A program made the translations under genes and the position numbers. From Cupriavidus malaysiensis (lineage in GTDB: Bacteria; Pseudomonadota; Gammaproteobacteria; Burkholderiales; Burkholderiaceae): a stretch of 64,000 nt of DNA. Each line of letters opens with the position of its first letter. Positions within the stretch are counted from its first letter, which is position 1. Positions 11,376 through 27,201 of this stretch are shown in pieces. The notes under the pieces are model-generated. The model was not told the DNA's origin, did not search any database, and saw nothing but the letters and a program-made list of their open reading frames with translations. The stretch covers positions 186,001-250,000 of the forward strand of contig NZ_CP017754.1 of assembly GCF_001854325.1 (NCBI RefSeq). The letters run 5' to 3'.

Positions 11376-11432
11376 CGCGCGGGCCGACAGGCCTGCCTGA
11401 ACAGCCTGCCGCCGCATCGAGGCGAGGGCACC

Positions 11433-11518
11433 AAAGAAAAACGGAGGCCGAAGCCTCCGTTTCTCAGCAAACCTGGTGGCCTGGGACGGAATCGAACCGC
11501 CGACACAAGGATTTTCAA
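11433..11518. repeat. Left att direct repeat (86 bp)
   Basis: Identical to 27085-27170. It contains a copy of the tRNA-Phe terminator hairpin (11441-11460) and the last 45 nt of the tRNA (11474-11518) and ends at TTTTCAA in the anticodon region. This marks the left edge of the island. Confidence 0.95.
11474..11518 (-). pseudogene. tRNA-Phe 3' fragment left by integration
   Basis: The 3' 45 nt of tRNA-Phe including the CCA end, duplicated by site-specific integration. It lacks the 5' half, so it is not a functional tRNA. The copied hairpin downstream of it (11441-11460) now probably serves as the terminator of the beta-lactamase gene on the opposite strand. Confidence 0.9.
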
Positions 11519-11602
11519 AACGTACCGTAGACTCGAAGCCCGCGCCAGATAAGGCTTTGCGGGTAGTTCGAAAGCGGAAAGCGGCCTAGGTTCTGGTGCA
11601 AC

Positions 11603-11621
11603 TTGGTACAAATCGGGCACA
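11603..11621 (+). repeat. Putative integrase arm site, left (P' arm)
   Basis: TTGGTACAAATCGGGCACA matches 27058-27076 at 18 of 19 positions in the same orientation. In the excised circle the two copies would flank the att core, one 8 bp away from it and one 84 bp away. This is the arrangement expected of arm-type integrase binding sites. Confidence 0.5.
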
Positions 11622-11790
11622 GATCGGAACGTTCGTGGCACATCACGCGTCGTCTGGCTATGTGCTGCGTAGAAAGGGGCGAAAGCTGAAGCAGTCGCGC
11701 GTGAAGGCTGCCCAGATCCTTCCAAAATAGACCCGACGTGACAAAGCACATAGAATCTGGGCTAATTTTGCACGAGGAATACCAATAGGT

Positions 11791-12981
11791 ATGACGTCCT
11801 GGGATACTTTGCGCGGTGTCGGTGACAGCGAGCTTGGCCAATACGCTACCCCGGCGGACCTAGCCAAACTGGTGGTGTCGCGATTCGGCAACAATGTCGA
11901 AACAGCAATAGATCTTGGCAGCGGTCCAGGGGCCCTTACACGTGCACTCCAAGCTCGTTATCCGATGGTCAATGTAACCATGATTGACATAGATCGTATC
12001 GGTGAACAAGCAGATGTTGATCCAGATCGGACGCGCTTCCTTCAGCGCTCGGTGCTAAGCGTCGGTTTCGCTACCAGGATTCGGAATGAGTTCGGCGCTT
12101 TCGACGTTGCAATCAGCAACCCTCCCTTCGTGACCGTTCGCTCCGATCCACCTAGATACCTTACGGAGGCACTTCAATCGCAAGTTGGTGCTCCTAGGTA
12201 CCGGGCGGAGCTTGCTTTCGCTGCACAAGCCTTGAAGTGCGTTGGGGAACGTGGGGCCGCTGCTATCTTCATGCCGAGTGAGATTCTCCGTCCCACAGAT
12301 GGCATGTCCACGATAGAAGCGTTGCTTCATCTTGAACTTGAGGAACTATTGGTCTTGCCCGGCCGTGTTTTCCGGCACGTAGAAGTTGATACGGTGGCTT
12401 TGATCTTTCGGCGACGTGGTGCACGACGTAAGAAGGTAAGGCTTTACACCGTTAGCTCAGACTTTTCCCTCTCATATTGCGGCTGGAAGACGTGTCCCGA
12501 AATCGAAGATCTACTCTTCAGCATTAAGAGGCCGGCAGGAACCGGGGCCAGGACACTTGGTGCAATTGGAGCAGGAGTTAAAAGAGGGAGGCACTCTTCG
12601 AGCCAGTTGCGCGAAATGGCGCGCCCCTTCTTTCACACGACATCTTTTGGCACCACCCGTGCTTTGGAGGTTGCATTCGACAGTAGTCCAAAGTTCCAGG
12701 GGGAGGAATTTGTAGTAGCGAAGCAGGGCGACATATTGATTCCGCGCGTTGGTTCTCGTTGTATGGATAAAGCGGCAATTGTCACAGCAGGTGCGCGCCC
12801 TATTAGCGACTGCGTTATCCAGTTAAGACTACCTGATGCCATGATTGGTAATGTTTGGGATTTTATTTCCTCCGAACAAGGAGTAATATGGCGGCGCTCC
12901 CTCACCCGGGGCAGTTGCGCAAAATTTATTCCCCAGGCGAGCCTTTTATCGACGCCACTCCCTGCTAATTTCCGTTTCTGA
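11791..12981 (+). CDS. N6-adenine-type DNA methyltransferase (cassette A)
   Basis: A 396-residue protein with the class I SAM-dependent fold. DLGSGPGALT (residues 41-50) is the SAM-binding motif I, DIDRI follows as motif II, and NPPF (110-113) is the catalytic motif of amino-methyltransferases, usually N6-adenine. The order is that of HsdM/Eco57I-like enzymes. The C-terminal 140 residues (from about KRGRHSS) resemble a target-recognition domain, so specificity may be built in. No restriction nuclease gene adjoins it. It converges on the 305-residue gene with a 17-bp 3' overlap, suggesting the four genes move together. Base composition is poorer in GC than the flanks. An alternative is an orphan phage-protection methylase. 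Confidence 0.8.
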   Translation: MTSWDTLRGVGDSELGQYATPADLAKLVVSRFGNNVETAIDLGSGPGALTRALQARYPMVNVTMIDIDRIGEQADVDPDRTRFLQRSVLSVGFATRIRNEFGAFDVAISNPPFVTVRSDPPRYLTEALQSQVGAPRYRAELAFAAQALKCVGERGAAAIFMPSEILRPTDGMSTIEALLHLELEELLVLPGRVFRHVEVDTVALIFRRRGARRKKVRLYTVSSDFSLSYCGWKTCPEIEDLLFSIKRPAGTGARTLGAIGAGVKRGRHSSSQLREMARPFFHTTSFGTTRALEVAFDSSPKFQGEEFVVAKQGDILIPRVGSRCMDKAAIVTAGARPISDCVIQLRLPDAMIGNVWDFISSEQGVIWRRSLTRGSCAKFIPQASLLSTPLPANFRF

Positions 12982-13882
12982 AATATTCAAATATTGCTCC
13001 AAAACTACGCCAGACGTTCACTCCGGCAGATCTTTTCGGTTTTCGCCGAGGGTGATCATAGACCAGTCCAACTTGATCCTGATAAAGGCTAGCAAATATC
13101 GCTGCTGCGATGCCGCAGGGTTTCGTACCAATAGGGGCAATAAACATCTTCTGTTCGGCTGACAGCGAAGCTCTAGTGTTCTGAAGCGCTTCAAAAGCGG
13201 CCTCTGGATCGTTTGCCGCGCAGTACGCGATGGCGAAGCTTCCACGCTCTTTCAGGGTTGTAAGATGCGGGACTATCGAGTGCAGTTCCCAACCTGCTTT
13301 GAAAGCGGGAAGGCCGAACAGAATCTTGATATCCTTCTCTACTATCATTTGGTATTCTTCTAACGCTCGATCGAGTCGCGCAGGCTCGAACCCGAGGAAG
13401 AATACCCCCGCCTCTACGTCGGGACTTGTTAGGTCTACAATTGCTGGAGGGATTGGCCGATATCCAGTCAATACATCCGTCAGGGCAAATTCATCACTCC
13501 CTCGCTCACTCCGGCTATAGTCATCTGGCTCAACATAAACGATATTCAATTGCGGCACTTGAAGCTTTATGGCAGCTCGAATGCCGCAATAGAGTTCGGC
13601 GAATCCAAGTGTCGTGGCCTCAAACAAGAAGGAGCTATTTCTATAATTTGCGAATATCTCCTCGCAGCGCTCTGCTAGGATTGGGCTTCCGCTTACTGTA
13701 AGCTCCATTTGCTCCGGGTCATAGCTCAGAGGCACATGATTCTGAGCGACCTCCTTCGCATTCTGGATGGCAAGCTCGCCCCGCTCATCGATTGCGTCAC
13801 CATGAAATAGAACGGCTGGCCCTTGGAGTCCCAAGCCCGTAAAGTCGTCTGCGAAGGATGATGAGAAGCGAATACTCGTCAT
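12965..13882 (-). CDS. Uncharacterised cassette A protein (Rossmann-like pattern)
   Basis: A 305-residue soluble protein I do not recognise. Alternating strand-helix segments (SSFLFEATTLGFAELYCGIRAA, then VPQLNIVYVEPDDYS; GVFFLGFEPARLDR; IKILFGLPAF; SFAIAYCAA; MFIAPIGTKPCGIAAAIFAS; VGLVYDHPRR) suggest a Rossmann-like fold, which could be a nucleotide sensor or an enzyme. The block IAPIGTKPCGIAAA looks like the most conserved site. It is the last gene of the leftward operon: its ATG overlaps the ATPase stop as ATGA, so it is translationally coupled. A ligand-sensing or effector role is inference only. Confidence 0.6.
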   Translation of the reverse strand: MTSIRFSSSFADDFTGLGLQGPAVLFHGDAIDERGELAIQNAKEVAQNHVPLSYDPEQMELTVSGSPILAERCEEIFANYRNSSFLFEATTLGFAELYCGIRAAIKLQVPQLNIVYVEPDDYSRSERGSDEFALTDVLTGYRPIPPAIVDLTSPDVEAGVFFLGFEPARLDRALEEYQMIVEKDIKILFGLPAFKAGWELHSIVPHLTTLKERGSFAIAYCAANDPEAAFEALQNTRASLSAEQKMFIAPIGTKPCGIAAAIFASLYQDQVGLVYDHPRRKPKRSAGVNVWRSFGAIFEYFRNGN

Positions 13883-15876
13883 TGCAGAAGATCCATTTGT
13901 GGCGTTTCTCGTCCATCACTTTGTCGGGTGATAGTTCTTGTTAGTTCGCTATATTCATCTTCGGTTCCAGCAATTAATACCGCAAACTGCTCTACCGAGA
14001 GTGGTATCTTACGTTTTCGCCGATAGCTAATTTGAAAATACGGCGCATAGATCGGGTTCAGTTGATAGTCCACGCCATCACGGCCGACGCTATTTTTTGA
14101 TTTTGTTTCAAGTTGCTCTACTAGTATTCCATATTTGTTTGCCTCGGATATGAATTCAATCTCTTGCGAGCCAATAACACGTCCCCCTGAATTGATGGTG
14201 ATCTGATTTTGCTCAGGCTCACTCATTGCAGGAGACGCTTGGAGGGCGCGAAAGATGCTGCCTAAACGAAGGACAAACATTCGGAGGCGGGGGCCGAGTG
14301 AACCAAAGGTGTTGATTTCCTGGAGCAATTGGTCAGCCGAATCGTAGGCTGCCCGCGCCTGCGTATCTATGGAGAAAATCTCCTCATCTTCCCCATTTAG
14401 CTCGGCGACCTCAACTGCCTTGTAGCATAGGATAAGAAAATGTCGAAGGTTACCATTTGCCATGGTGACGAACGTATCAAAGCCGCTATAAATTGGGCAA
14501 ATGCGTCCATATGGCCGATATAACTCTAGGAGCGAGCCAACTAAATTATTATGAATCCAGGTGGATGCGAAGCTCCCCTCTTGTTCTGATGCATACCTCT
14601 CCAATTCCCCTAGCACAGTTGCGGGGTTTTGAGTTTCGCGATTTAGCAGTGCGGGTAATATAACGATCGCTTCGGGTACGGAATCGAGAAAGCGAACGTA
14701 TGGTGCTGCATCAAATTTTGCACCTCTGCGCCGGAGCGCCTGATTGATACGCTCGACAAGTTTTGATAAGAGTTTGGGGTTTCCCACCGCCTCTCTCGCG
14801 ATTTGCTTCACTTCTCGCGATGGGAAGCGTCGCCGAATCTCGCCCAGGATCTCCTCCTGTGCTTGTTGAGCTCTACGAGCGGGCAGGCCCTCGGGTGATA
14901 GCATTCGTGTGAAGAGTGCGCTGCTTGTGCGGCTCTCTGCAATGTCCAAATTCCCGAGTAAGACTTCTGCGAAGAATACCGTTCTGTCACGCTCTGGTAA
15001 TAGTGACTCCAGTTCGATAAGTCGAAAATCGTGAGTGGCATTTACCCACTCAGAGCCCGTCGTCATGTTTTCGTTTGATTGAACCTTCGATGTGAAATTG
15101 ACGATAAACGGACGCTGACTATGTTTTAAGAATGAATTTAATACTCGTCGCTGATATGGCGTTAGGTTTTCGACTTCATCGACATACACGAAGAAGCAAG
15201 CATCTGAGAGATTTGGGCTTCTACGTATGTCGCTTATCAGTGTGTCGATAAACATTTTGCCAGGCGGAAGTATGGGCTTTTCCGTGGAGCTGACATTAGA
15301 CACCCACATGCCAAATTGCCTTCGCATGCGTTCTAAAGCGCTTTGCAATTCAATCGGATCAGAGGGGAAGTTTTGGTGGAAATCAGGCAGACTATCAAGT
15401 CGAAGTTCTGCAAGGTCGTCCAGCGAGAAATTCCGGTAGCTACTTGTTGCAATGGTGCGCAACGCGCGGACGATTTCCAGGGCAATAACTACGGCAAAAT
15501 AGCTTTCAAATGCTACGATCCACTCTTCTTCAGCTATGCCTCTATGCTGCATCGAATTGCAGAACTGAGTATCCACACGCCAATAGATTGCTATATGGCC
15601 GATCTCATCATCAGGGATAGCGTCTCGCCTTGGTGAAAAGGCAGTATGGTAATCAAGGTACTTCAAAAGCATGGTTTTTCCACAACCACGCTTTCCTGCA
15701 ATATACGTTGACTTCGTCGCCGTCTTTAGGGCAAGGGCGTCGAAATACGGAGGGATAAAGAACTTGCCCCAGACGTCTGCGTCATGTTCTTCTGCGCGTG
15801 TTTTGGCCAGAATTGTTCGGTCGTTCGATGTTAGCACTTCATCTCTCCCGAAGTGGGGTCCATGTTGCAGATTCAT
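13879..15876 (-). CDS. ORC/CDC6-like P-loop ATPase (cassette A)
   Basis: A 665-residue protein with a clear AAA+/STAND-type nucleotide-binding site: Walker A GKRGCGKT (61-68), Walker B FFVYVDEVENL (228-238) and a sensor-like strand FIVNFTSK (256-263). After the ATPase core come about 350 residues with helical and winged-helix-like stretches (for example the EIEFISEANKYGILVEQLE segment), as in ORC/CDC6-like ATPases of biological-conflict loci. It overlaps the upstream phosphoribosyltransferase gene by 38 bp and the downstream gene by 4 bp, so the three products are made together. It may act as the switch that couples detection of invading DNA to an effector; that is inference. Confidence 0.75.
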   Translation of the reverse strand: MNLQHGPHFGRDEVLTSNDRTILAKTRAEEHDADVWGKFFIPPYFDALALKTATKSTYIAGKRGCGKTMLLKYLDYHTAFSPRRDAIPDDEIGHIAIYWRVDTQFCNSMQHRGIAEEEWIVAFESYFAVVIALEIVRALRTIATSSYRNFSLDDLAELRLDSLPDFHQNFPSDPIELQSALERMRRQFGMWVSNVSSTEKPILPPGKMFIDTLISDIRRSPNLSDACFFVYVDEVENLTPYQRRVLNSFLKHSQRPFIVNFTSKVQSNENMTTGSEWVNATHDFRLIELESLLPERDRTVFFAEVLLGNLDIAESRTSSALFTRMLSPEGLPARRAQQAQEEILGEIRRRFPSREVKQIAREAVGNPKLLSKLVERINQALRRRGAKFDAAPYVRFLDSVPEAIVILPALLNRETQNPATVLGELERYASEQEGSFASTWIHNNLVGSLLELYRPYGRICPIYSGFDTFVTMANGNLRHFLILCYKAVEVAELNGEDEEIFSIDTQARAAYDSADQLLQEINTFGSLGPRLRMFVLRLGSIFRALQASPAMSEPEQNQITINSGGRVIGSQEIEFISEANKYGILVEQLETKSKNSVGRDGVDYQLNPIYAPYFQISYRRKRKIPLSVEQFAVLIAGTEDEYSELTRTITRQSDGRETPQMDLLQ

Positions 15877-16714
15877 CCCAGAATAATTGTAGCGAGTTGT
15901 CAGGCACGCCGTGGTCGTAAACGACTGTCAATCCCAGTGAGCCAAATCCCAAACTGTAGTCGTCATCAAATTTAGCTAGGCGTTTGTGCACATCCAGATA
16001 AACCTCGAGGGGTTCGCAGTCTTGATGCGGCCAGAGACCATCAGATTTCCATCGCAATGCAGTTTCTACAAAACCGTGCTCAGACTTGAGGATTTCACCG
16101 GCAAACACAGGAATGTTGGGGAATCGCGCGGTAAATTTCGCGATTCCTTGCTCATGCGCAATGGCGACGACTACGGCTGATTGCCCCCCCTCTTTCATGA
16201 AAGGAGCATACCGATCTATGTAGTTGACCAACTGGTCGCCAGTATAGAGACCGTCATCCACCAAGAAGAAGCGTTCATCAGAGGTGAGCTTGGCCAACTG
16301 ACCTGGATGCTGCCTTCGGAATCCATAGGTTTGGGCCGCGTACCTAACGATCAAGTCTCCACTTTTCCCGGGAAGAGAGGCCTCCATGGGGCCGCCATAG
16401 AAGTAGACGCCTGGCACATTGTTCGCTATTGCCTGCTGCCAATTCGGAGCATTGGGTCCAAACATCTCGGAAGTGAAATGTTCAACCGCGCCTTTAAGCG
16501 CCTGGCGAAATGCAGATGCCAACTGCAGATTGGTTCGGTAGAGCATGTGCCGAGTCAGCAATAGTCCGAGCGCTTGCTCCGGCTCGGATTTGAATTGATT
16601 CAGCCAAGCCGAAACCCTTTCCCAAGGGAGCATTGGTCCTCGGACACTGTCGCGCGAAAGCGCCTTGATTGTTCGGCGCAGCTGCATCTTGTCAAAGTGA
16701 GAGTTTTCTTGCAC
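15839..16714 (-). CDS. Phosphoribosyltransferase-fold protein (cassette A)
   Basis: A 291-residue protein with the PRPP-binding loop of type I phosphoribosyltransferases: FFLVDDGLYTGDQ (149-161), that is, hydrophobic residues, two acids, then GxxTG. The first 100 residues are helical and specific to this family; the rest alternates strands and helices (AVVVAIAHEQG, NIPVFAGEIL). The family resembles the phosphoribosyltransferase partners of ORC/CDC6-like ATPases described in conflict systems. It may make or remove a nucleotide signal or modify a base. It is the first gene of the operon. The longest frame begins with GTG at 16714; an ATG at 16690 is an equally possible start and neither has a good ribosome site. 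Confidence 0.7.
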   Translation of the reverse strand: MQENSHFDKMQLRRTIKALSRDSVRGPMLPWERVSAWLNQFKSEPEQALGLLLTRHMLYRTNLQLASAFRQALKGAVEHFTSEMFGPNAPNWQQAIANNVPGVYFYGGPMEASLPGKSGDLIVRYAAQTYGFRRQHPGQLAKLTSDERFFLVDDGLYTGDQLVNYIDRYAPFMKEGGQSAVVVAIAHEQGIAKFTARFPNIPVFAGEILKSEHGFVETALRWKSDGLWPHQDCEPLEVYLDVHKRLAKFDDDYSLGFGSLGLTVVYDHGVPDNSLQLFWDESATWTPLRER

Positions 16715-16991
16715 CGGTCGTCAAGTGAGATGGTTTGATCGAAGCCTGCACCAGGCTCTGAATTGGCAGCCCCTATCGCTGAGCCGCTTTCTTTCCCGTA
16801 GTCGCTCATAGTACAAGCGATTGTAGGGGAAGAGAAACGCACACCATCTCGGCCACCTGGGGTGGGGGAAACAGCGTCCGCCCGACCAGAGTGTCGAGCA
16901 CAGAGATCCATCTGCTGGGCAGTAGCGCTGCCTGCTAGGTTGAGCATCCGCGGTGAGGCGATTCGAATAGGCATGCTTCTTTGATCCGAGA

Positions 16992-17007
16992 CTGTATATG
17001 CATACAG
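16992..17007. promoter_or_regulatory. LexA (SOS) box
   Basis: CTGTATATGCATACAG matches the LexA consensus CTGT-N8-ACAG exactly and extends to ACTGTAT/ATACAGT arms. It overlaps -10-like hexamers in both directions (TATACT on the minus strand at 17011-17006). The nearest downstream gene is the cassette A operon, whose start is 280 bp away leftward. A short leftward frame starts at 16974 but does not look like a protein. Confidence 0.75.
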
Positions 17008-17050
17008 TATAGATTGGCGGTTTCGCTGAAGTTGGCGGGGTGTAGGGAGA

Positions 17051-17330
17051 AAGGTAACATCGGTAGCCTGTAACGGAAAATTGCCCATGAACCCTTGCTA
17101 GACAAGGGTTTCGAGGTATCAAGGTAAAGGTAACATCCGGGTAACTTAGAGGTGACGTGTTACCTTCCTAGAAAGTCACATCAGCAATATCTGACTTCCA
17201 TGGGAATCAAGCGCTTAGCATAGCGTTACCTTTCTTGTTACCTGATATTACCTTTGCGAGGTAACGAAAAATACCCTTATAATTCAATAGGTTGCAACTG
17301 AATTTTGGCACGCATTACCGACGTTACCTT
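17051..17330. repeat. Cluster of GGTAAC/GTTACC sites
   Basis: About ten copies of a GGTAAC core lie in 280 bp. Sites at 17051, 17121 and 17128 (adjacent pair), and 17139 read GGTAA; those at 17159, 17225, 17237, 17248, 17313 and 17323 read TTACC; one more GGTAAC is at 17260. Most extend to AAGGTAAC. The orientation flips at about 17150. Such a cluster suits a phage repressor or replication-protein binding region. No gene lies in it. Confidence 0.7.
17254..17283 (+). promoter_or_regulatory. Sigma70-type promoter within the GGTAAC cluster
   Basis: TTGCGA (17254-17259) and a perfect TATAAT (17278-17283) are 18 bp apart and read rightward. A GGTAAC site lies inside the spacer, so the binding protein would control it. 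No convincing gene follows at once, so it may be a remnant promoter of the lost phage early region. Confidence 0.5.
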
Positions 17331-17976
17331 TTTCCCGAGTCCACCCAAAAATGCCGCCACGCCTGGGTGAGGCCCAACAGGCGCACGCGGCCATCGCTGC
17401 CGCGCGGTGGCACATCCGGTGCCTCGGCACACTTACCAAGGTGCATAGATCCGCATAAGTTTGTGCAGGCTGCCAATCGCCCGGGGCCTCAGCGCAGGCG
17501 CCGGCTGGCGGCATCCTTGCGGCTGCATATAAACCACTCGATGAAGCGCGCGGGTGAGGCGGGGTCTCCACCGCGCGCGAAGGGTCCAACGCGCCGCGAG
17601 CAACACCCTGGCGCCCGGAAATCGGCCCGGCAAGGTGCATGGTGGCTTTGTGGGAGAGTGTTGGCGCAGCGAATGGGAGTGCTCTGGGAGCAGAAACGAA
17701 TGGTGGCGCTTCACGCGCCTCTCAGACAGCACCGCCGGCGAGCGCCGGCAGCGGGAAGAAGGAATGGCCCGGCACCGGCGCAGTTTTGCGATCGCTCCGG
17801 TTTCGCTCACCAGTTCGACCAGCGCTTCACGCACCGGCTACGCCCGCGCTCGCTCCTAGTCCTTGAGTGTCTGGACGGGTCAGTACGGAGCGTGATCTCC
17901 GACGTACTTACCGTCTAGAGCATGGCTTTATCATAAGCAGGAGGAATCAATGGCGTTAAATCGAAGTGTTCTTGAT
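17331..17976. other. Non-coding phage left-end region
   Basis: This 650-bp stretch lies between the GGTAAC cluster and the portal gene. Several overlapping frames exist on both strands, but all are Arg/Pro/Ser-rich and none has recognisable protein content. It includes the cos-like site. In P2 the same position, just outside gene Q, is also non-coding and holds cos. Confidence 0.5.
17553..17564 (+). other. cos: P2-type cos-like site
   Basis: GGTGAGGCGGGG differs at one base from the start of the P2/P4 cohesive end (GGCGAGGCGGGG). It has the same orientation and the same place relative to the leftward portal gene Q as in P2. I infer a retained packaging site; the rest of the 19-nt end does not match clearly. 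Confidence 0.45.
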
Positions 17977-19008
17977 TCATAGAATGTATGAGTCGAATCG
18001 AATGACTTCTTGGCCGAGCCAGTCATTCGTCTCCATCAGTCGATCCTGAAGCGGCTTCACCTCGTTGCGCGCGAAGACCAGCGCCGCCTTCTCCACGTCG
18101 CCAAAGCCCCCGGTGTTGCTGGGAATGATGCCCATCAGCTGCGGCGGCACCCGGTGCGCCGCAAGCTGGTCGTCGCGCGTCACGTTCTTGATGTTCCAGA
18201 ATTCGTCCTTGGCCGCCACCTCGGACACCGGGAAGAGCTGGATGCCGTCCTTCTTACCGTTGGGCGCGTACATGAACAGGTTGCGGAAGTTGCCCGGGCC
18301 CTTGCTGTTCTTGAGCGCCTCACGCAGCGCGTCGACGTCCTCTTGCTTCTGCGCGGCGTCGGTCATGTACAGGATGAAGCCGGCGTGGCTGCCGTTGAGG
18401 TAGTAGCGACGGCGGAACAACGTAGCCGACTCATCAAGCCAGGTGGCATTGAGCGCCGACAGGTACTCGGGCAAGCCATAGACCTCCTGGTTGATATCGG
18501 GCTCCATCAGGTGGAAGATGCTGCCCGCCTTGAACTGGTGCTTCTCCTGCTCGCCCTGCACGAAGTAGTAGGTCTCCAGATCCTGGCCGCGCCGCATGAA
18601 CTTGGCCAGCGCGGGTTCCAGTGCAATCGGCCGGTCCAGGGCGTTGTCGCGCCGCTCCAGGTAGCCGTTGCCGAACACCAGGAAGTCCATCACCCAGCGC
18701 GCGAACGCGGTGCGCGAGAGCAGCTTGTGTGGGACGAAGGTCGACACCAGGATGTTGCGCTTCACGTAGATGGGCGAGCTGTTATGCACCGCTGCGCGGA
18801 AGCTGCGCGCGAGTCCGTCCCACGGCAACGGTGGCTCGAACCACTTGTCCTGGCACATGCATTCCACGTAGTCGAGCAGCTCGCGCCGATCGAGCACGGG
18901 CACCGGCTCGCCGAAAGTGAAGGCCTCCACCGAGGGCGAAGGCGCAGCGGGGGGCGGTGCGGGAACGGTTGCCGATGCCGTCGCGCGGCGCGATTTTCTG
19001 CGGGTCAT
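17977..19008 (-). CDS. Q: P2-like phage portal protein (gpQ)
   Basis: A 343-residue portal vertex protein, the same length as P2 gpQ. It forms the dodecameric DNA gate of the capsid. Typical segments are PPLPWDGLARSFRAAVHNSS, the FGNGYLERR.N strand, QEVYGLPEYLSALNA, LFRRRYYLNGSHAGFILYMTD, and PPQLMGIIPSNTGGFGDVEKAA. The start at 19008 overlaps the terminase stop as ATGA, showing coupling in the order P then Q as in P2. It appears intact; it serves packaging only if capsid and tail proteins come from another phage. Confidence 0.92.
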   Translation of the reverse strand: MTRRKSRRATASATVPAPPPAAPSPSVEAFTFGEPVPVLDRRELLDYVECMCQDKWFEPPLPWDGLARSFRAAVHNSSPIYVKRNILVSTFVPHKLLSRTAFARWVMDFLVFGNGYLERRDNALDRPIALEPALAKFMRRGQDLETYYFVQGEQEKHQFKAGSIFHLMEPDINQEVYGLPEYLSALNATWLDESATLFRRRYYLNGSHAGFILYMTDAAQKQEDVDALREALKNSKGPGNFRNLFMYAPNGKKDGIQLFPVSEVAAKDEFWNIKNVTRDDQLAAHRVPPQLMGIIPSNTGGFGDVEKAALVFARNEVKPLQDRLMETNDWLGQEVIRFDSYIL

Positions 19009-20786
19009 GAGAACTCCATGATGCTGGTGTTGGTGGACGTCACGCCCTCCAGCGGCTCGTGCGCCAGGGCGTGCATGCAGGCCCACGCCAGGTCGGCGTG
19101 GCTGGTCTCCTCCGAGCGGCTGGCCTGGTAGGTGACCCGTCCGCCGGCGGCGGTGACGGTCTTGCGGATCGACAGGAAAGAGGCCGCGAAGTCGGTCCAG
19201 CCGGCGTCGAACTTCAGCCGGCCCTTGCTGATGATGTCCATGGCCTTGAGCACCAGGCCGGTCTTCACGTCGACCGAGTAGGTGAAGCCCTGCGCGTCCG
19301 GCCGTGACTTGAGCACGACCTTGTAGACGGCATCGCCCACGCCTGTGCGGTCGATGCCGATGTAGCTCACGTTGTAGCGCTCGCACACCTTCAGGATGGC
19401 GTCGGCCTGTTCGTCGTAGTCGATGCCGCGGAACTGGCGTTTCTCCAGCACGCGGAACTTGCCACCGGGCACCATTGGCGGCGCCATCACGACCAGGGCC
19501 GCGCTGTCCCCTCCCCCGCCGTTTGGGTCGTAGCCGACCCACACCTCGCGGTTGCCAAACGGGCGGTCGGCCCAGGGGCGGAAGTCGTCCCATACCTCCC
19601 AGCTGTCGACCATGCAACGCAGCAGCATCGACAACAGGAATACGGACGCGGCATCATCGATGAAGCCGCACATCAGCAAGCTCTCGAAATCCGCGTCGCT
19701 GTACTCGCAGCGCAGTTGGTCCAGGTCGAACAGGTTGCAGCCGCCGCGCACCGCGTCTTCGACCGTGACAATCTGGCGCCACTGGCCGTCCGCGCAGCGG
19801 CGCCCATCGCGCAATGCCGCGTGGCTGATATCGACCTGGACGCGCTGCTCCTTTCTCCGGCCGCGGTTGAACAGCGCGCCCGACCAGAACGGGTAGGCTT
19901 CGTGCGCCAGGCTCGACGGGGTCGAGAAATACGTCTGCCGCCACTTGGCGTGGATGGCCATGCCGGAGGCCACCTTGCGTAGCTCCTGGAAGCGCGGAAT
20001 CCAGAAGTAGTCGTCCAGGTACAAGTTGCCGTGGTAGCTCTGCGCCGTACGCGCATTGGTACCCAGGAAGTAGAGCGTAGCGCCATTGGGCAGCACGACC
20101 GGATCGCCTTTCAGCTCCACGCCGGCGGCGTCCTTGGCGAACTGGATGATGTACTGCTTGAAGACGTGGGCCTGCGCCTTGCTGGCCGACAGGAAGATCT
20201 GGTTGCGCCCGGTCATCAGCGCGTCAATGAAGGCTTCGCGCGCGAAAAACCAGGTGGCGCCGATCTGCCGGCTCTTCAGGATGTTGCGGATGCGCTCGGC
20301 CAGGCCGGCCTCGTACCAGACGCGCTGATAGTCGAACATCGAATCCAGGAAGGCGTCGATCAGCTGCGCCTTCTGCTCGTCGCTGATCGCGTTGCGCTCC
20401 GGCTTCTTGCGCGGGCCGCGATTGCGGTTCGCCACCTTTGGATTCAGGTCGGCCTCGTTGCCGCTGTCCTCATAGCGGCGCACGCGCGCCAGGCGCTCGA
20501 TCTGCCTGCCCAGCAGGTCGATTTCCTTGTAGTCCCTGCCCTCCTTCTCATTCTTGGCCAGCAGCAGCGCCATGCGCGCCTCGATGGCCGTGCCGATGCG
20601 CTCCACCGCGTCGGCGTCCGCCCAACGCTCGCGCCGCTTCCAGCTATGGAGGGTCGCAGGCTTGACGCCGAGCATCTGCGCGATCCGCGCGACACGGTAG
20701 CCCTGCCAGTAGAGCGCACGCGCGATGCGCCGCGGCTCCATTTCAGGGTCCAGGGTGAGCGAGGCGATCGGGGTAAGCGTAGACAT
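19005..20786 (-). CDS. P: P2-like terminase ATPase subunit (gpP)
   Basis: A 593-residue large terminase, matching P2 gpP in length and place. An N-terminal helix-turn-helix (QGYRVARIAQMLGVKPATLHSWKRRERW) is followed by the ATPase core (KSRQIGATWFFAREAF as Walker A-like, YLDDYFWI as Walker B) and a C-terminal nuclease domain (YDPNGGGGDSAALVV, IDRTGVGDAVY). It cuts concatemers at cos and pumps DNA into the procapsid. The ATG at 20786 is preferred; an upstream extension is low-complexity Arg/Ala. It appears intact and diverges from scaffold gene O. Confidence 0.92.
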   Translation of the reverse strand: MSTLTPIASLTLDPEMEPRRIARALYWQGYRVARIAQMLGVKPATLHSWKRRERWADADAVERIGTAIEARMALLLAKNEKEGRDYKEIDLLGRQIERLARVRRYEDSGNEADLNPKVANRNRGPRKKPERNAISDEQKAQLIDAFLDSMFDYQRVWYEAGLAERIRNILKSRQIGATWFFAREAFIDALMTGRNQIFLSASKAQAHVFKQYIIQFAKDAAGVELKGDPVVLPNGATLYFLGTNARTAQSYHGNLYLDDYFWIPRFQELRKVASGMAIHAKWRQTYFSTPSSLAHEAYPFWSGALFNRGRRKEQRVQVDISHAALRDGRRCADGQWRQIVTVEDAVRGGCNLFDLDQLRCEYSDADFESLLMCGFIDDAASVFLLSMLLRCMVDSWEVWDDFRPWADRPFGNREVWVGYDPNGGGGDSAALVVMAPPMVPGGKFRVLEKRQFRGIDYDEQADAILKVCERYNVSYIGIDRTGVGDAVYKVVLKSRPDAQGFTYSVDVKTGLVLKAMDIISKGRLKFDAGWTDFAASFLSIRKTVTAAGGRVTYQASRSEETSHADLAWACMHALAHEPLEGVTSTNTSIMEFS

Positions 20787-20929
20787 TGCCGCCACGCTAC
20801 CGGCGATGCGCGCGCGTGCAAGCCGGCGCGTGTTGTGCCGGCGCCTGGCACAACACGGCGCCGTTGCCCGCGCAAGACGTGCCGCCCAAGATGCCATCAC
20901 GACCGACTCACTGCCAACGCGAGGAACCC
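20787..20929. promoter_or_regulatory. Divergent P-O intergenic region
   Basis: This 143-bp gap separates P/Q (leftward) from O/N' (rightward). In P2 the matching gap carries the two divergent late promoters activated by Ogr. I see the symmetrical GCGCGTGTTGTGCCGGCGCC stretch near 20828 and an incomplete TGTTGT/ACAACA dyad around 20832-20854, a plausible Ogr-type activator site. No ogr gene remains on the island, so late expression would need a helper phage. Confidence 0.45.
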
Positions 20930-21802
20930 ATGGCTGGCAAGACCCCGAAGTACTTCCGCATCGCCACCGAGGGCGCCACCAGCGACGGCCGCGAGATCGA
21001 CCGTGACATGCTGGTGCAGATCGCCGCCGGCTACGACGCGAACACGTATGGCGCCCGCATCAACCTGGAGCACATCCGCGGCATCCTCCCGGACGGTCCG
21101 TTCAAGGCCTACGGCGACGTCCTGGCGCTGAAAGCCGAAAAAGACGACGGCAAGATGCGCCTGTACGCGCAACTCGACCCGACGCCCGAGCTGGTGGCCC
21201 TCACCAAGGCCCGCCAGAAGATCTACTGTTCCATGGAGATCAGCCCCGACTTCGCCGACACCGGCGAAGCCTACCTGGTCGGCCTGGCGGTCACGGACAA
21301 CCCGGCCAGCCTCGGTTGCGAGATGCTCCGCTTCAGCGCGAAGAGCGAGGACAAGCCGCTGGCCTCGCGCAAGCAGGACCCCGACAACCTCATCACCGAA
21401 GCCACCGAGGTCGCGCTCGACTTCTCCGCAGAAGAGGATGCTCCCGCCGGTGGCTGCCTCGCGGAGTCCATCAAGCGCCTCTTCGGCCGCCAGGCGAAGG
21501 CCGAGGCCGGCGCTGCCGCCCAGCTCGCCGACAGCAGCGAGGCGGTGCAACTGCTCGGCCAGGAGGTCAAGGCGCTGTCCGAGAACTTCGCCAAGCTGCT
21601 GACGGCTACCGAGGGGATGGCGGGGACGATCGACCAGATCAAGAAGGACCAGGCGAGCGGCCAGGAGGCCTTCGCCACCCTCAAGGGCGAGTTGGAGACC
21701 ACCGAGGCCTACACCCGTCGCCCTGCCGCCACCGGCGGCAGTGGCGCGGGCGCAGGCAAAGGGCGCAGCGAAAGCCCGGCCACCGTCGAAACCGACTGCT
21801 GA
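20930..21802 (+). CDS. O: P2-like capsid scaffolding protein/protease (gpO)
   Basis: A 290-residue scaffold, close to the length of P2 gpO. The N-terminal half is the assembly protease (KYFRIATEGATSDGREI, then INLEHIRG with the catalytic His and KIYCSMEISPDF with the catalytic Ser); residues 200-265 form a helical scaffold region (VQLLGQEVKALSENFAKLL). It guides capsid assembly and trims gpN and itself. The start has a GAGGA ribosome site. It appears intact although its partner gpN is truncated just downstream. Confidence 0.9.
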   Translation: MAGKTPKYFRIATEGATSDGREIDRDMLVQIAAGYDANTYGARINLEHIRGILPDGPFKAYGDVLALKAEKDDGKMRLYAQLDPTPELVALTKARQKIYCSMEISPDFADTGEAYLVGLAVTDNPASLGCEMLRFSAKSEDKPLASRKQDPDNLITEATEVALDFSAEEDAPAGGCLAESIKRLFGRQAKAEAGAAAQLADSSEAVQLLGQEVKALSENFAKLLTATEGMAGTIDQIKKDQASGQEAFATLKGELETTEAYTRRPAATGGSGAGAGKGRSESPATVETDC

Positions 21803-21848
21803 GCCGGCCCACGGACAGCGATTCCCACCCTATCCCGGAGCCACCTCG

Positions 21849-22190
21849 ATGCGCAACGATACCCGCCGCCTCTTCGACGCCTACACGGCGAAGCTCGCTG
21901 AGCTGAACGGCGTTACCAGCGTCAGCACGAAGTTCAACGTCCAGCCCAGCGTGCAGCAGCGCCTGGAAACCCGCATGCAGGAGTCGAGCGACTTCCTCTC
22001 CCGCATCAATATCATCGGCGTGGACGAGCAGGAAGGCGAAAAGGTCGGTCTCGGCGTATCGGGTCCGATCGCCAGCACCACGGACACGACGACCAAGGAT
22101 CGGGAGACGAGCGACGTCATCGATCTGACCGGCCGCGCCTATCGCGGCATGGCACACTACTCGATGGGATCGATACACCGAGGATGCTAG
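21849..22190 (+). pseudogene. N: Truncated P2-like major capsid protein (gpN')
   Basis: The frame begins as a normal gpN (MRNDTRRLFDAYTAKLAEL, NVQPSVQQRLETRMQESSDFL, IIGVDEQEGEKVGLGVSGP) but leaves the family after GRAYR at about residue 97 and stops at residue 113; full gpN is about 350 residues. The break near 22143 is the left junction of cassette B. The start and ribosome site are intact, so a short fragment holding the capsid N-arm may still be made together with gpO. Confidence 0.88.
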
Positions 22191-22193
22191 TGA

Positions 22194-23375
22194 ATGGCCA
22201 AGTCAATCAATCGCTTCTTTGAAGAGATCGGGATGCACCTGTACAACGGACGGTGGTCATGGGGCGCTGAAAAGGACCACATGATCGTCCTTCGAACCTG
22301 GGCAGACCAGTGCAATGTTCGTGAGCGGCGCGTCGCCGTGCTTCATCAAAGGACATTGGTGGAAAGTGCATCAGCTGGCCTCGACGAACGCGTTCAGCAT
22401 TTAAAGGCGATATGGGGCGGTGGTGTCGCGGCCTACACGGTGATTGCAACGGCGGTCGATCCAACTTTGGCAGATCGGTCGATAAAGTCATACAGGGATG
22501 CTCTGTTTGCGATTGACTCGCTTGAGGTTGACCACGAAGGCACGTTCTATGCTGGCTACTCCAGGGTTCTGGACCCTCGCGATTTCCGGAGCGATGCAGT
22601 GAAGCATCGGACCACTCCGAGCAGCGGTCCGTTCCCGATAGACAAGCAACTGGAGTCGGGGCTGTCGTCCGCCACGGTCCGCGAAAAGCTCCCCCACATG
22701 CGCGAGTGGCTAATCGGCGCCGCGCGGAGTCGCACTCCGGTGAGGTATGCCGAGTTGATGCAACGCTTTGATCTCAGGTACGAAACGCTCTTTACGAGCC
22801 TAAAGCAGCTCGGTCTGGCGTGCGTTGTCGCAAACGAGCCGGTGATCATTGCACTTGTTGTGGACAAGGATACCGGGCGATGCTCGAAGGGCTTCAAAGA
22901 GGTCTTCGGAATCACGGACGATGAGGCCGAACGTAAGCGCTGCTACGCTTACTGGTCCTTTACGCAGTCAGAAACCGTGCTGGCCACACCACAGGGCAAA
23001 GCGAACGAGGAGGCCGCCCAACGGGCCGGGGAAGTTGACGATCGCGAGCAAGAAGATCGCGTCGCTCGCTTCATGAGCGTCGAGATTCGGCAGCAGCAAT
23101 CGGCGTTCCGGAGGGCTGTTTTCTTGGCCTTTCGCGGACGGTGTGCAATTTCAGGCTGCGACGTTCCCGAGGCGCTCGAGGCTGCTCACTTTCGTGGTCG
23201 CGATTGGAGGGAGGGGCATAATCAGGCTGCGGACGGCATCTTGCTTCGGCGAGACCTGCACACACTGTACGACCGGGGACTTCTCGACCTTTCGGACGGG
23301 ATTGCCCATTTCAGCCCACGCGTACTGCACCACTACGTGCATCTTGATGGCTTGGATGTTGCTACCAGGTTTTAG
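22194..23375 (+). CDS. HNH endonuclease-domain protein (cassette B)
   Basis: A 393-residue protein. Residues 302-393 form an HNH nuclease domain: AFRGRCAISGC with cysteines, then AAHFRGRDWREGHNQAADGILLRRDLHTLYDRGLL, holding the H-N-H residues and the closing helix. Residues 165-250 look like a winged-helix domain with a VVDKDTGRCSKGF loop found in several nuclease accessory domains. The N-terminal 160 residues are family-specific and may bind the target. It starts three bases after the gpN' stop, so it would be read from the phage late promoter. It probably cleaves foreign or modified DNA; the target is unknown. Confidence 0.8.
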   Translation: MAKSINRFFEEIGMHLYNGRWSWGAEKDHMIVLRTWADQCNVRERRVAVLHQRTLVESASAGLDERVQHLKAIWGGGVAAYTVIATAVDPTLADRSIKSYRDALFAIDSLEVDHEGTFYAGYSRVLDPRDFRSDAVKHRTTPSSGPFPIDKQLESGLSSATVREKLPHMREWLIGAARSRTPVRYAELMQRFDLRYETLFTSLKQLGLACVVANEPVIIALVVDKDTGRCSKGFKEVFGITDDEAERKRCYAYWSFTQSETVLATPQGKANEEAAQRAGEVDDREQEDRVARFMSVEIRQQQSAFRRAVFLAFRGRCAISGCDVPEALEAAHFRGRDWREGHNQAADGILLRRDLHTLYDRGLLDLSDGIAHFSPRVLHHYVHLDGLDVATRF

Positions 23376-23642
23376 GTTAGCCACCTTTCTCGCCATTTCC
23401 TGATGGCCTCGGGCGGGGCCGCCCGTCACTGAACTCGACGACGTACTCGCATTCGATGCAGGGTAGTCGGTATCACCGGTCGTACTCAGCCAGATGGCGT
23501 ACATTCGGTGGGCTGCCACCGGATCTGGCCAGCCCATGGTGGTCTTTCGATATTCCGATAACAACGACTGGCTCACAGCAGGAAGGGGCATTGGCCAGCC
23601 AGCTTACACAGCTAATTTGGTGGGTTGCGACTAAGGGCGTAG
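23376..23642. other. Gap between the two cassette B genes
   Basis: This 267-bp stretch has no convincing gene on either strand. It may hold a promoter for the metallo-beta-lactamase-fold gene, but I can point to no clear -35/-10 pair. The spacing weakens the idea that the two cassette B genes are one operon. Confidence 0.4.
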
Positions 23643-24929
23643 ATGATTCACGTACACCAATGTTTCAACGCGGTGGGCCACGGCACCTTCTTCAGCGGGC
23701 TTGTGCAGGACGATCGGCAGCCGACGCGGAGCTTCAGTTGGGTGTATGACTGCGGCTCAAAGCGGACTACTCGGATCGATGCAGAAATTGCAGATCTGGA
23801 AGCATGGACGGCCTGGCCAGAGAGGATCGATCTCTTCGTTCTCTCTCACTTCGACGACGACCACGTGAACGGTGTCGAGCGATTCTTGCAAGAGCGATCG
23901 GTCGACGTTCTAGCGCTGCCGTATTTGGACGTGGCGCAGCGCCTCATGCATGCGGCGGCACTAGCGGACGAGGCCAGCTCGGCGTCCACGGCACTCTTCC
24001 AGCTTGACCCCGTTCAATGGCTTAGCGCCAAGGGCCTATCTGGTCGGGTCGGGTCCATCGTGTTCGTGCGAGGCGGCCAGAGACAAGACGGCGACCCTCC
24101 AGTTGATGTAGATCCACGGCCTTTGGTAGGTCTGCCCCGTCTGGACGGATCCGAGCAGGCGTCAGCAGCAGATGATCCGGATGTGGACTTTCGCCTCGAT
24201 TACTTTGCTGCGAAAGGCCCAGAAGGGACGTCCAAACTACAGCTCATGCTTTGGAGGCATGTGATGCCTGCGGCCCATGCCTTGTTCCCTGTTGAATTGA
24301 TGTTCTTCAACTCGGAACAACCGGATCTGTTCCGACGCGATATAAGTGGTAATCGCGTGGCGCGGCGTTCAGGTATGCCATTGCCCGCTTTGCAATCAGA
24401 GATTCGTTCAGTTATGCAACGGTTCGGTCTTTCGGACCTGTCGCGATCACCTCGTCAGAAGTGGCGAGACGCGCTACGTGCCACGTACGGAAAGCACTTC
24501 GGCAGCACCAGTCAACATCGCAATAACATCTCGCTCTGTCTGTTAGTGCGGCCGCTCGCACACGAGGTCTGCAGGTGCAGAATTTTCCATGACCGCATGG
24601 CGCGCAGGATTCCCGTCAGTGGCAGAGCTGGGTTGCTTTGCCTGGGTGATCTTCGGATCAACAAGGAAGTACTTTCGGCGATGTGGACGCACTTCGGCGC
24701 TGCTCGTTGGAACACCATTGCTGGCGTACAGGTGCCACACCATGGGTCGCGGCATTCGTGGGAGGCGGGTTGCGCCAGTGCTTTCGCTCCGGACTGGTTT
24801 GTTCACTGCGTTCCTGATAGGTCAGCGCATCACCCGCACGAAAGCGTGAATGCTGATCTTTTCGGGTACCCGGTACTTCGGGCGACCTACAGGCGTCGCG
24901 TTGCTATCGACTATCACTTCCCGCCGTGA
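23643..24929 (+). CDS. Metallo-beta-lactamase-fold hydrolase, ComEC-like (cassette B)
   Basis: A 428-residue cytoplasmic protein with a metallo-beta-lactamase fold of the ComEC/Rec2 kind. The metal site is visible as SHFDDDH (68-74, HxDxDH), GLLCLGDL in the position of the usual TGD, and VPHHGSRHSW (364 onward). ComEC domains of this type degrade one strand of DNA; free-standing versions are common in defence loci beside nucleases. The central 200 residues form an unusual insert between the metal motifs. It has no signal peptide. A nuclease or phosphodiesterase acting with the HNH protein is the best inference. Confidence 0.8.
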   Translation: MIHVHQCFNAVGHGTFFSGLVQDDRQPTRSFSWVYDCGSKRTTRIDAEIADLEAWTAWPERIDLFVLSHFDDDHVNGVERFLQERSVDVLALPYLDVAQRLMHAAALADEASSASTALFQLDPVQWLSAKGLSGRVGSIVFVRGGQRQDGDPPVDVDPRPLVGLPRLDGSEQASAADDPDVDFRLDYFAAKGPEGTSKLQLMLWRHVMPAAHALFPVELMFFNSEQPDLFRRDISGNRVARRSGMPLPALQSEIRSVMQRFGLSDLSRSPRQKWRDALRATYGKHFGSTSQHRNNISLCLLVRPLAHEVCRCRIFHDRMARRIPVSGRAGLLCLGDLRINKEVLSAMWTHFGAARWNTIAGVQVPHHGSRHSWEAGCASAFAPDWFVHCVPDRSAHHPHESVNADLFGYPVLRATYRRRVAIDYHFPP

Positions 24930-25902: not shown

Positions 25903-26249
25903 GAACCATGAGCCTGGAGGAGGCCGCGGCCTTGCTCTACACCACGCCCGAGCGGGTCTCCGAGTGCATTCGCAAGGAGGGGCTGCCAGCGGTCAAGGTC
26001 GGCCGGGCCTGGGTGCTGGTGGATGTGGATGTGATAGATTGGATTCGCGGAAGATATGCCAAAGAAGGAGGCAGATGCGGCTCTATCGGCGAAAGCGGGC
26101 CGGGCCCTGGTGGTTCGACATCAGCATCGACGGCTCGCGAATTAGACAGTCTTCTGGCACCACGGACCGCAGAGAGGCGGAAGAGCTTGCCGCCAAGGTT
26201 GCGAGTGATTACTGGCGGCAAAAAAAGCTCGGCGAGCAGCCGGCGGTGA
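25899..26249 (+). CDS. Helix-turn-helix protein, probable excisionase or regulator
   Basis: A 116-residue protein with a MerR-like/AlpA-like winged helix in the first 50 residues: MSLEEAAALLYTTPERVSECIRK, then LPAVKVGRAWVLVDVDVIDWI. Small proteins of this type beside an integrase act as excisionases or directionality factors. The 3' part is low-complexity and overlaps the integrase gene by 175 bp in another frame, so the functional part is probably the first 55 residues. The ATG at 25899 overlaps the V' stop as ATGA; a second ATG at 25908 is possible. Confidence 0.75.
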   Translation: MRTMSLEEAAALLYTTPERVSECIRKEGLPAVKVGRAWVLVDVDVIDWIRGRYAKEGGRCGSIGESGPGPGGSTSASTARELDSLLAPRTAERRKSLPPRLRVITGGKKSSASSRR

Positions 26250-27190
26250 ACTGGGACGCGGCCGTTGTCCACTGGCTCAAGGAGAACCAGCATCTGCGCT
26301 CGCTGGAAACGGTCAAGCAGCGCCTGCGCTGGCTGACCAGCCAGTTGCGTGGCGAGCCACTGCGCGCGATCGGGCGCGAGCGCATTTCCGGCTTGATCGA
26401 GGCCAAGTTATCCACAGGCGTGGTGGGGGCCACGGTGAATCGCCACATGGCGGCGCTGTCCGTGATCCTGCACCACGCGCACCGCGAGGGCTGGATCGAC
26501 GCCGTGCCGCCGATCCGCAAATTGCCCGAGGGCGGCAGCCGCTTGACCTGGTTGACGCGCGAGCAGGCCCATCGGCTGTTGGCCGAGTTGCCGCACCACC
26601 TGCGACAGATGGCACGCTTCGCGCTGGCCACCGGCCTGCGGGAATCGAATGTGCGCTTGCTGGAATGGTCGCAGGTCAACCTGGGGCGGGCTCTGGCCTG
26701 GATTCACGCCGACCAGGCGAAAGGCAGGAAGGTGATCGCGGTCCCGCTGAACGCGGATGCGATGGCGGTGCTGAGCGAGCAGCTGGCGGAGCGTCGCCCC
26801 TATGTCTTCCCCTATCGGGGGCAGCCGGTGCGGCGGATCTACAACCACGCTTGGCAGAAGGCTTGCAGCCGGGCCGGCCTGGATGGCTTGCGCTTCCACG
26901 ACCTGCGTCACACTTGGGCGAGCTGGCATGTCCAGGCGGGCACTCCGCTGCCGGTGTTGCAGCAGCTTGGCGGCTGGGCCAGCTACCAGATGGTGCTGCG
27001 CTACGCCCACCTGGGGCACGACCACATTGCCGCCTACGCGGACAACCTCGGCAGCCTTTGGTACAAATCTGGCACACCGCCACAAAAGAAAAACGGAGGC
27101 CGAAGCCTCCGTTTCTCAGCAAACCTGGTGGCCTGGGACGGAATCGAACCGCCGACACAAGGATTTTCAATCCTCTGCTCTACCGACTGA
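26075..27190 (+). CDS. int: Tyrosine recombinase/integrase of the island
   Basis: A 371-residue phage-type integrase. An N-terminal arm-binding domain (residues 1-50) and SAM-like core-binding domain precede the catalytic domain with R189 (TGLRESN), H275-x-x-R278 (HDLRHTW), W301 and the nucleophile Y310 (LRYAHL). The start at 26075 has a strong AAGGAGG site. The frame then runs through the att repeat, across the tRNA terminator and into antisense tRNA-Phe, where it stops. Its last six residues thus come from host DNA. It catalyses integration at, and excision from, tRNA-Phe. It lies next to V', not next to the replication genes as in P2. Confidence 0.95.
   Translation: MRLYRRKRAGPWWFDISIDGSRIRQSSGTTDRREAEELAAKVASDYWRQKKLGEQPAVNWDAAVVHWLKENQHLRSLETVKQRLRWLTSQLRGEPLRAIGRERISGLIEAKLSTGVVGATVNRHMAALSVILHHAHREGWIDAVPPIRKLPEGGSRLTWLTREQAHRLLAELPHHLRQMARFALATGLRESNVRLLEWSQVNLGRALAWIHADQAKGRKVIAVPLNADAMAVLSEQLAERRPYVFPYRGQPVRRIYNHAWQKACSRAGLDGLRFHDLRHTWASWHVQAGTPLPVLQQLGGWASYQMVLRYAHLGHDHIAAYADNLGSLWYKSGTPPQKKNGGRSLRFSANLVAWDGIEPPTQGFSILCSTD
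27058..27076 (+). repeat. Putative integrase arm site, right (P arm)
   Basis: TTGGTACAAATCTGGCACA, one mismatch from the copy at 11603-11621. It lies inside the integrase coding sequence, 8 bp before the att repeat. Confidence 0.5.
27085..27170. repeat. Right att direct repeat (86 bp)
   Basis: Identical to 11433-11518. Here it is part of the intact tRNA-Phe and its terminator, so this is the side carrying the functional tRNA. The repeat ends inside the anticodon stem-loop region. Confidence 0.95.
27093..27112 (-). terminator. Terminator of tRNA-Phe
   Basis: ACGGAGGC-CGAA-GCCTCCGT hairpin followed on the minus strand by a T-rich run, 13 bp after the tRNA 3' end. A duplicate is at 11441-11460 in the left att repeat. 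Confidence 0.85.
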
Positions 27191-27201
27191 GCTACCGGGC
27201 C
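27126..27201 (-). tRNA. tRNA-Phe (GAA)
   Basis: A complete 76-nt tRNA: D-arm GCTC/GAGC, anticodon stem GAGGA/TCCTT with loop TTGAAAA giving anticodon GAA, T-loop TTCGATT and an encoded CCA end. The acceptor stem pairs except for a C5-A68 mismatch, which is present in both copies of the 3' half. It is the integration target of the island. Confidence 0.97.

Follow-up and report, generated by a model that had tools for sequence, protein, structure and literature searches.

We analysed a stretch of 64,000 nucleotides from Cupriavidus malaysiensis (NZ_CP017754.1, positions 186,001 to 250,000; the whole stretch is called the window here) and found a cassette of four adjacent genes that encode a DNA methyltransferase (methylase), a CARF6-family protein, an ORC/CDC6-like ATPase and a protein with a phosphoribosyltransferase (PRTase) fold. 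We propose that the cassette is a mobile, modification-guarded defence module that targets nucleotides. The gene set and the folds of its products are practically certain, and we give the model as a whole a probability of about 0.5. In this model, the methylase would mark host DNA at its sites, and the ATPase, acting on DNA, would form a sensing switch with the CARF6 protein, acting as a ligand gate. Modified self DNA would hold the switch off. Upon invasion, unmarked or replicating DNA, a phage-altered nucleotide at the CARF6 pocket, or both, would free the PRTase-fold effector, which would break nucleotides and halt the replication of the phage and perhaps the cell as well.

Predicted products of the four genes

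An initial annotation made from the letters of this DNA had described a compact four-gene block, and the overlaps of 38, 4 and 17 bp between adjacent open reading frames (ORFs), as well as the motifs VDDGLYTG, GKRGCGKT, VYVDEVEN, DLGSGPG and NPPF, are all present as claimed (Table 1). Overlap of ORFs by chance was ruled out by the family matches and conservation of all four genes; on these comparisons, the four reading frames are not chance. Where all other members of a family agreed at an alignment column, the window residue differed in 0 of 27 columns for the CARF6 protein, 4 of 79 for the ATPase, 2 of 20 for the PRTase and 2 of 20 for the methylase, and none of the deviating residues lay within the named motifs.

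The PRTase and ORC/CDC6 families that had been read from the motifs were recovered with Pfam profiles. The ATPase matched ORC-CDC6-like (PF24389) with an E-value of 3.9e-107, far over the gathering score, and showed the AAA+ Walker A/B motifs and the Cdc6/Orc1 fold of this family, with Walker B residue D233 invariant in 21 of 21 sequences. The arginine in its P-loop was also found in 10 of the 14 distant homologues whose P-loop could be read, and a kinase-AAA+-CARF fusion with such an arginine was already described in 2014 (PMC4012209). The PRTase matched PRTase-CE (PF24390) at 2.1e-32 (113.5 bits against a gathering score of 27) and the PADLOC retron-type effector model PRTase_III-A at 2.9e-13. 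Its profile aligned with uracil and adenine phosphoribosyltransferases across the phosphoribosyl pyrophosphate (PRPP)-loop stretch, and D153, D154 and G159 were invariant in 17 of 17 sequences; the loop thus aligns with the fold, as the first assignment had supposed. PRTases of a related type are effectors of retron III-A and ShosTA systems (PMC9122126, PMC11878078), and by analogy the 291-residue protein is a predicted effector that may destroy nucleotides.

The methylase matched Pfam N6_Mtase (7.6e-10) and the PADLOC models MTase_II (1.3e-38) and mad2 (3.4e-14). Residues G45, G47, N110, P111 and P112 were invariant in all 16 family members, the window included, and the 396-residue protein is a predicted N6-adenine-type DNA methyltransferase. 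A cognate endonuclease was sought in domain scans of the four genes, where no nuclease domain was found; the sole type IIG match (0.0077) spanned the methylase part alone. We also observed a methylase of the same family at another locus (L060, 1-6981), next to an AAA ATPase, a TniB-type ATPase and a TniQ protein in a transposon-like setting.

The 305-residue protein had been taken for either a sensor or an effector; the following matches favour a sensor-like protein. No Pfam family matched it at E<=1, and its best PADLOC match was the CARF6 model PDLC01920 (1.5e-75); six more models of this clade matched, with E-values of up to 0.023. Its fold matched Csm6/Card1/Can2 and SAVED, and the Rossmann-like CARF fold was present. 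Because the CARF6 profile (A1) matched 0 of 177,635 PDB sequences, the CARF assignment rests on the PADLOC models and the fold, which together predict a two-domain, CARF/SAVED-like, sensor-like protein of the CARF6 family. When used alone on 398 genomes sampled from the phylum, the CARF6 profile matched two genomes, in both of which the match adjoined an ORC/CDC6-like ATPase. K254 of the G-T-K motif was invariant in 30 of 30 alignment rows and in 10 of 10 rows of a set with distant members. Judged from alignment ranges, it would lie near the ligand-binding lysine of Csm6-type CARF domains, for which K137 of TtCsm6 is the reference motif II residue (PMC10897365).

The same fold match raises the very improbable alternative that the protein is an accessory of type III CRISPR or of a cyclic oligonucleotide-based antiphage signalling system (CBASS), responding to cyclic oligonucleotides from another source in the cell. 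We searched 12 cassette-carrying genomes, namely the window's own, G043 and ten of the 13 locus genomes described below (completeness is stated for 2 of the 12). The Csm1 and Cmr2 models for Cas10 matched none of the 12, and among 14 control genomes they were positive in 7 and 4, respectively; dependence on type III CRISPR was thereby ruled out. SMODS was found over the cut-off in one of the 12 genomes and at E<=1e-3 in three, which speaks for the accessory role, but it was not found in the window's own genome with this one model, which does not cover all cGAS/DncV-like nucleotidyltransferases (CD-NTases). Domain scans found no CD-NTase among the four cassette genes. Within the limits of these searches, Cas10 would not supply the standing ligand, and in most of these genomes a detectable CD-NTase would not supply it either.

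Recurrence of the cassette and exchange of its parts

A genome scan with the ATPase gave 13 loci, 11 of them complete, and all 11 contained all four genes; the other two (L012 and L013) were interrupted by contig ends, and their remaining genes fit the cassette. All four genes were also found on a Cupriavidus plasmid (the same stretch as L005), a Diaphorobacter plasmid, K. pneumoniae pKPHS2 and a Moraxella plasmid, in an Acinetobacter record and in genome G043; five of these, namely the plasmids and the Acinetobacter record, were picked from among the matches. The order PRTase-ATPase-CARF6 was constant across the four-gene loci, in which the CARF relatives reached down to 24-25% identity. The methylase gene varied in position: it preceded the other three genes with the same orientation in some loci (for example L001 and L048), followed them with the same orientation in others (L002, L049, L050 and L065) or followed them convergently (the window, L010 and L047).

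Upon comparison of the flanks of 17 loci and the window with blastn, at most 453 bp in total were shared per pair, L005/L046 excepted, and the window flanks shared no base pair with those of other loci. The portal, scaffold and two cargo proteins of the prophage remnant around the window's cassette likewise had no matches at other loci. The four genes therefore recur together in unrelated islands, on which the initial annotation had made its proposal depend, and the sequence comparisons support the cassette as a real four-gene unit found in unrelated places and in mobile-element settings.

The cassette is also portable. Among the 72,556 plasmids of PLSDB, CARF relatives were present in 146 (128 from Klebsiella) and ATPase relatives in 149 (130 from Klebsiella). 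The one Klebsiella plasmid that was opened, the conjugative pKPHS2, carries a whole divergent cassette (L048, 1743-6849) with 30% identity in the ATPase and 24% in the CARF protein. As of 30 September 2026, RefSeq contained this Klebsiella version in four E. coli records, with three of the four genes labelled 'hypothetical protein'. We also examined a record labelled 'Acinetobacter phage' (L049, CAKLQF020000018.1), in which efp, cstA, kamA and tRNA-Val surround the cassette. This record is probably a bacterial contig; it was not counted as a phage, given that the two 'phage' matches bear one species label and that efp, cstA and the tRNA are present.

The pairwise distances of 13 places were compared in a mirror-tree analysis, which omitted L008, L046 and the truncated L012 and L013, with L049, L050 and L065 outside the alignments. 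Correlations were 0.95-0.98 within the PRTase, ATPase and CARF6 trio and 0.60-0.71 between these and the methylase. Without the distant L047 and L048, the values were 0.89-0.93 and 0.74-0.80, and none of these correlations was equalled in 2000 Mantel permutations. The shifting position and looser covariation of the methylase, as well as its presence without the cassette in L060, favour an unlikely alternative resembling a toxin-antitoxin pair, in which a PRTase toxin is restrained by the ATPase and CARF6 protein (compare DprA-ShosT), while the methylase only travels along or serves a plasmid or prophage as an anti-restriction gene. PRTase toxins with DNA-processing antitoxins do exist (PMC9122126, PMC11878078). 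Against this alternative, every one of the 17 complete loci of the closer four-gene type (the window, L001-L011, L047-L050 and L065) includes a methylase, and the catalytic residues of the methylase are conserved throughout the 16 family members.

To place the cassette among more distant relatives, we used the phylum sample, in which 14 of the 398 genomes were over the PF24389 cut-off and ten matched across a long stretch. The tally covers genomes over this cut-off, with 69 weaker genomes left aside; four matches (G331, G223, G055 and G362) lay around the Walker A stretch alone and were omitted, as was G123, whose match coordinates were the same as those of G274. In all nine loci examined, CARF6 directly followed the ATPase or was fused to it. 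The preceding gene was PRTase-CE in five (the window, L050, L054, L055 and L057), HD-CE in two (L051 and L053) and a calcineurin-like phosphoesterase in one (L052). In the ninth (L056, 6494-10213), a kinase domain was fused in front of the ATPase, yielding a kinase-ATPase-CARF6 protein of 1239 residues that matched PADLOC PDLC01925, a kinase-AAA-CARF model, over its full length; the kinase domain itself was under the Pfam cut-off (24.6 against 31.7).

The fixed ATPase-CARF6 pairing and the natural kinase-ATPase-CARF fusion are the reasons for assigning these two proteins the role of a sensing switch, into which the effector and the modification gene may be plugged. Similarly, a nucleotide-breaking effector is suggested by the protein family, by the PRTase effectors of retrons and ShosTA and by replacement with HD and calcineurin-like proteins; this replacement, together with a dUTPase_2 gene that precedes the PRTase gene in L049 and L065, points to nucleotide destruction. 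The Clover system provides a precedent for a nucleotide effector gated by a nucleotide (PMC12265719).

The neighbour genes of the distant loci were scanned in part. Among the nine loci, N6 methylases were present in two (the window and L050) and C5 methylases in two (L051 and, two genes off on the other strand, L056), and the window-type methylase profile matched no ORF of L051-L057. Among the genes scanned, no modification-type gene was recognised in L052 and L053, and no methylase in the PRTase-CE loci L054, L055 and L057, the latter again favouring a toxin-antitoxin-like arrangement. In a sample of the order, 4 of 300 genomes matched, the window included. In L071, PRTase-ATPase-CARF6 is flanked by a PF01555 methylase on one side and HsdM/HsdS on the other; L073 has ATPase-CARF6-methylase with no recognised effector, and L072 has ATPase-methylase with no CARF match. 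A C5 or type I methylase adjoins the distant relatives L051, L056 and L071, which argues against the toxin-antitoxin-like arrangement.

The neighbours of L055 and L057 also include HAD and PfkB genes (PfkB in L057 barely over the cut-off), and those of L054 include HAD and NADAR. These enzymes bring in an improbable signal system, as proposed for Ter systems, in which the PRTase, with HAD/PfkB enzymes in the cousins, would make a nucleotide-like signal read by CARF6. The conserved pocket-type lysine and the cassette's lack of a separate cyclase, together with the Cas10 and SMODS counts, agree with such a signal. However, the slot of the PRTase is also held by HD-CE, calcineurin-like and kinase proteins, for which degradation or phosphorylation would be expected and not the synthesis of a nucleotide, and no HAD or PfkB match was found among the four window genes.

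We tentatively extend the defence module, at less than even odds, to an immune class that depends on neither CRISPR nor CBASS. In this class, the modification status of DNA would act through the ORC/CDC6 ATPase together with a two-domain receptor of the CARF/SAVED type, with the result that the nucleotide pool is destroyed. The nucleotide sensed by the receptor would come from the invader or from the effector itself, with no dedicated cyclase, and killing would fall to a kinase or to hydrolases that can replace one another (PRTase, HD, calcineurin-like). If this is true, CARF/SAVED receptors act outside cyclase pathways, and methylation is tied to nucleotide destruction with no DNA cutting, that is, restriction by starvation and not by scission. 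A single operon makes a CARF ligand without a cyclase a testable question.

Setting within a prophage remnant

The four genes have a G+C content of 0.48-0.53, compared with 0.67 for the whole window. The repeat copies of the attachment (att) type bound portal, large terminase and scaffold genes, a capsid gene cut short, a baseplate piece and an integrase. From its gene order, we take this remnant to be P2-like. The cassette lies between att copy 1 and the portal gene and is therefore inside the remnant; the mobile-element setting described earlier holds, and the location beside an att site is corrected to one within the prophage.

Table 1. Positions of the cassette genes, their motifs and the surrounding prophage features in the window.
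Feature	Position	Strand	Remarks
Methylase ORF	11791-12981	+	396 aa
Methylase motif DLGSGPG	11911-11931	+	sequence
Methylase motif NPPF	12118-12129	+	sequence
305-aa protein (CARF6) ORF	12965-13882	-	
G-T-K, residues 252-254 of CARF6 protein	13121-13129	-	Thr253 varies
ORC/CDC6-like ATPase ORF	13879-15876	-	665 aa
Walker B VYVDEVEN	15166-15189	-	sequence
Walker A GKRGCGKT	15673-15696	-	arginine in P-loop; sequence
PRTase-CE ORF	15839-16714	-	291 aa, GTG start
PRPP-loop VDDGLYTG	16238-16261	-	sequence
att-type direct repeat, copy 1	11429-11518		90 bp, 99% identical to copy 2; cassette end of prophage remnant
Prophage remnant beside cassette	17977-22190		portal (-), large terminase (-), scaffold (+), truncated major capsid (+); PHROGs
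Remnant integrase	25964-27190	+	phrog_1 3.5e-66
att-type direct repeat, copy 2	27081-27170		overlaps 3' part of tRNA-Phe
tRNA-Phe	27126-27201	-	

ORC-like ATPases also serve in replication and transposition. The cassette is found on a prophage remnant and on plasmids, its variant L073 lies amid conjugation genes (TrbI and CagX), and a conjugative coupling protein is encoded close to L055. On these grounds, an anti-restriction or replication module of a mobile element, not a defence system, has to be considered, and we regard it as quite improbable. The chromosomal genes efp, cstA and tRNA-Val around L049, as well as the PRTase-CE, HD-CE and retron-type effector matches, which point to conflict effectors, are evidence against it.

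Homology in the major capsid gene (21741-22190) ended after about 100 residues, and the remnant looks defective. A second cargo follows this gene (22194-24929) and is possibly another defence pair: one protein is of the HNH endonuclease type (Pfam HNH_2, 2.4e-8), and the other has a metallo-beta-lactamase fold and matches PADLOC LmuA over a short stretch (2.2e-10). P2-like phages of E. coli have such cargo hotspots, one of which holds a DprA and PRTase pair (PMC9122126). Promoter-like sites (7 against 4.9 in shuffles, standard deviation 2.5) and terminator-like sites (7 against 7.5, standard deviation 3.5) were in no clear excess, and no Rfam family matched at gathering score in 11400-18000.

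Comparison with known systems

The initial annotation knew of no characterised system with this gene set, and PADLOC likewise named none for the four genes together. The NCBIfam models DS32_1 (23.1 against a cut-off of 250) and DS41_1 (14.6 against 370) were far below membership. No paper describing the set was found in the literature searched, which did not include Makarova 2020 and Nicastro 2023. Nicastro and colleagues reportedly described PRTase-CE, HD-CE and ORC-CDC6-like conflict systems in 2023, as a prediction only. The effector and ATPase of the cassette are members of these families (PF24390 and PF24389), and HD-CE (PF24391) takes the place of PRTase-CE in cassette relatives.

The 305-residue protein has the same fold as the CARF and SAVED receptors of CBASS and type III CRISPR; in contrast to these systems, the cassette has no cyclase, its 12 host genomes gave no Cas10 match, and its effector is separate from the receptor. 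A PRTase-fold effector is shared with retron type III-A and ShosTA, which differ in that neither a reverse transcriptase nor DprA is among the four genes, and an ATPase, CARF6 and a methylase are present instead. Restriction-modification systems differ in their nuclease, a domain that the cassette genes lack. The coupling of a modification gene to an ATPase of the ORC/CDC6 clade is common to bacteriophage exclusion (BREX), MADS and Dnd/Ssp-type systems; the BREX ATPase BrxC belongs to this clade (PMC12839542). However, no PglZ or BrxC model matched the four genes at E<=1, and the multi-gene mad set was absent, with a clear match for mad2 (methylase) and a weak one for mad8 (ATPase, E 0.024).

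The kinase-AAA+-CARF-wHTH fusions described by Makarova et al. 2014 (PMC4012209) have an AAA+ P-loop arginine and a CARF domain, as does the cassette, and the L056 fusion fits this description; the cassette differs in having separate genes, a PRTase and not a kinase, and an N6 methylase. The parts of the cassette are therefore already known, the effector and ATPase families being named in Pfam and CARF6 being a named clade.

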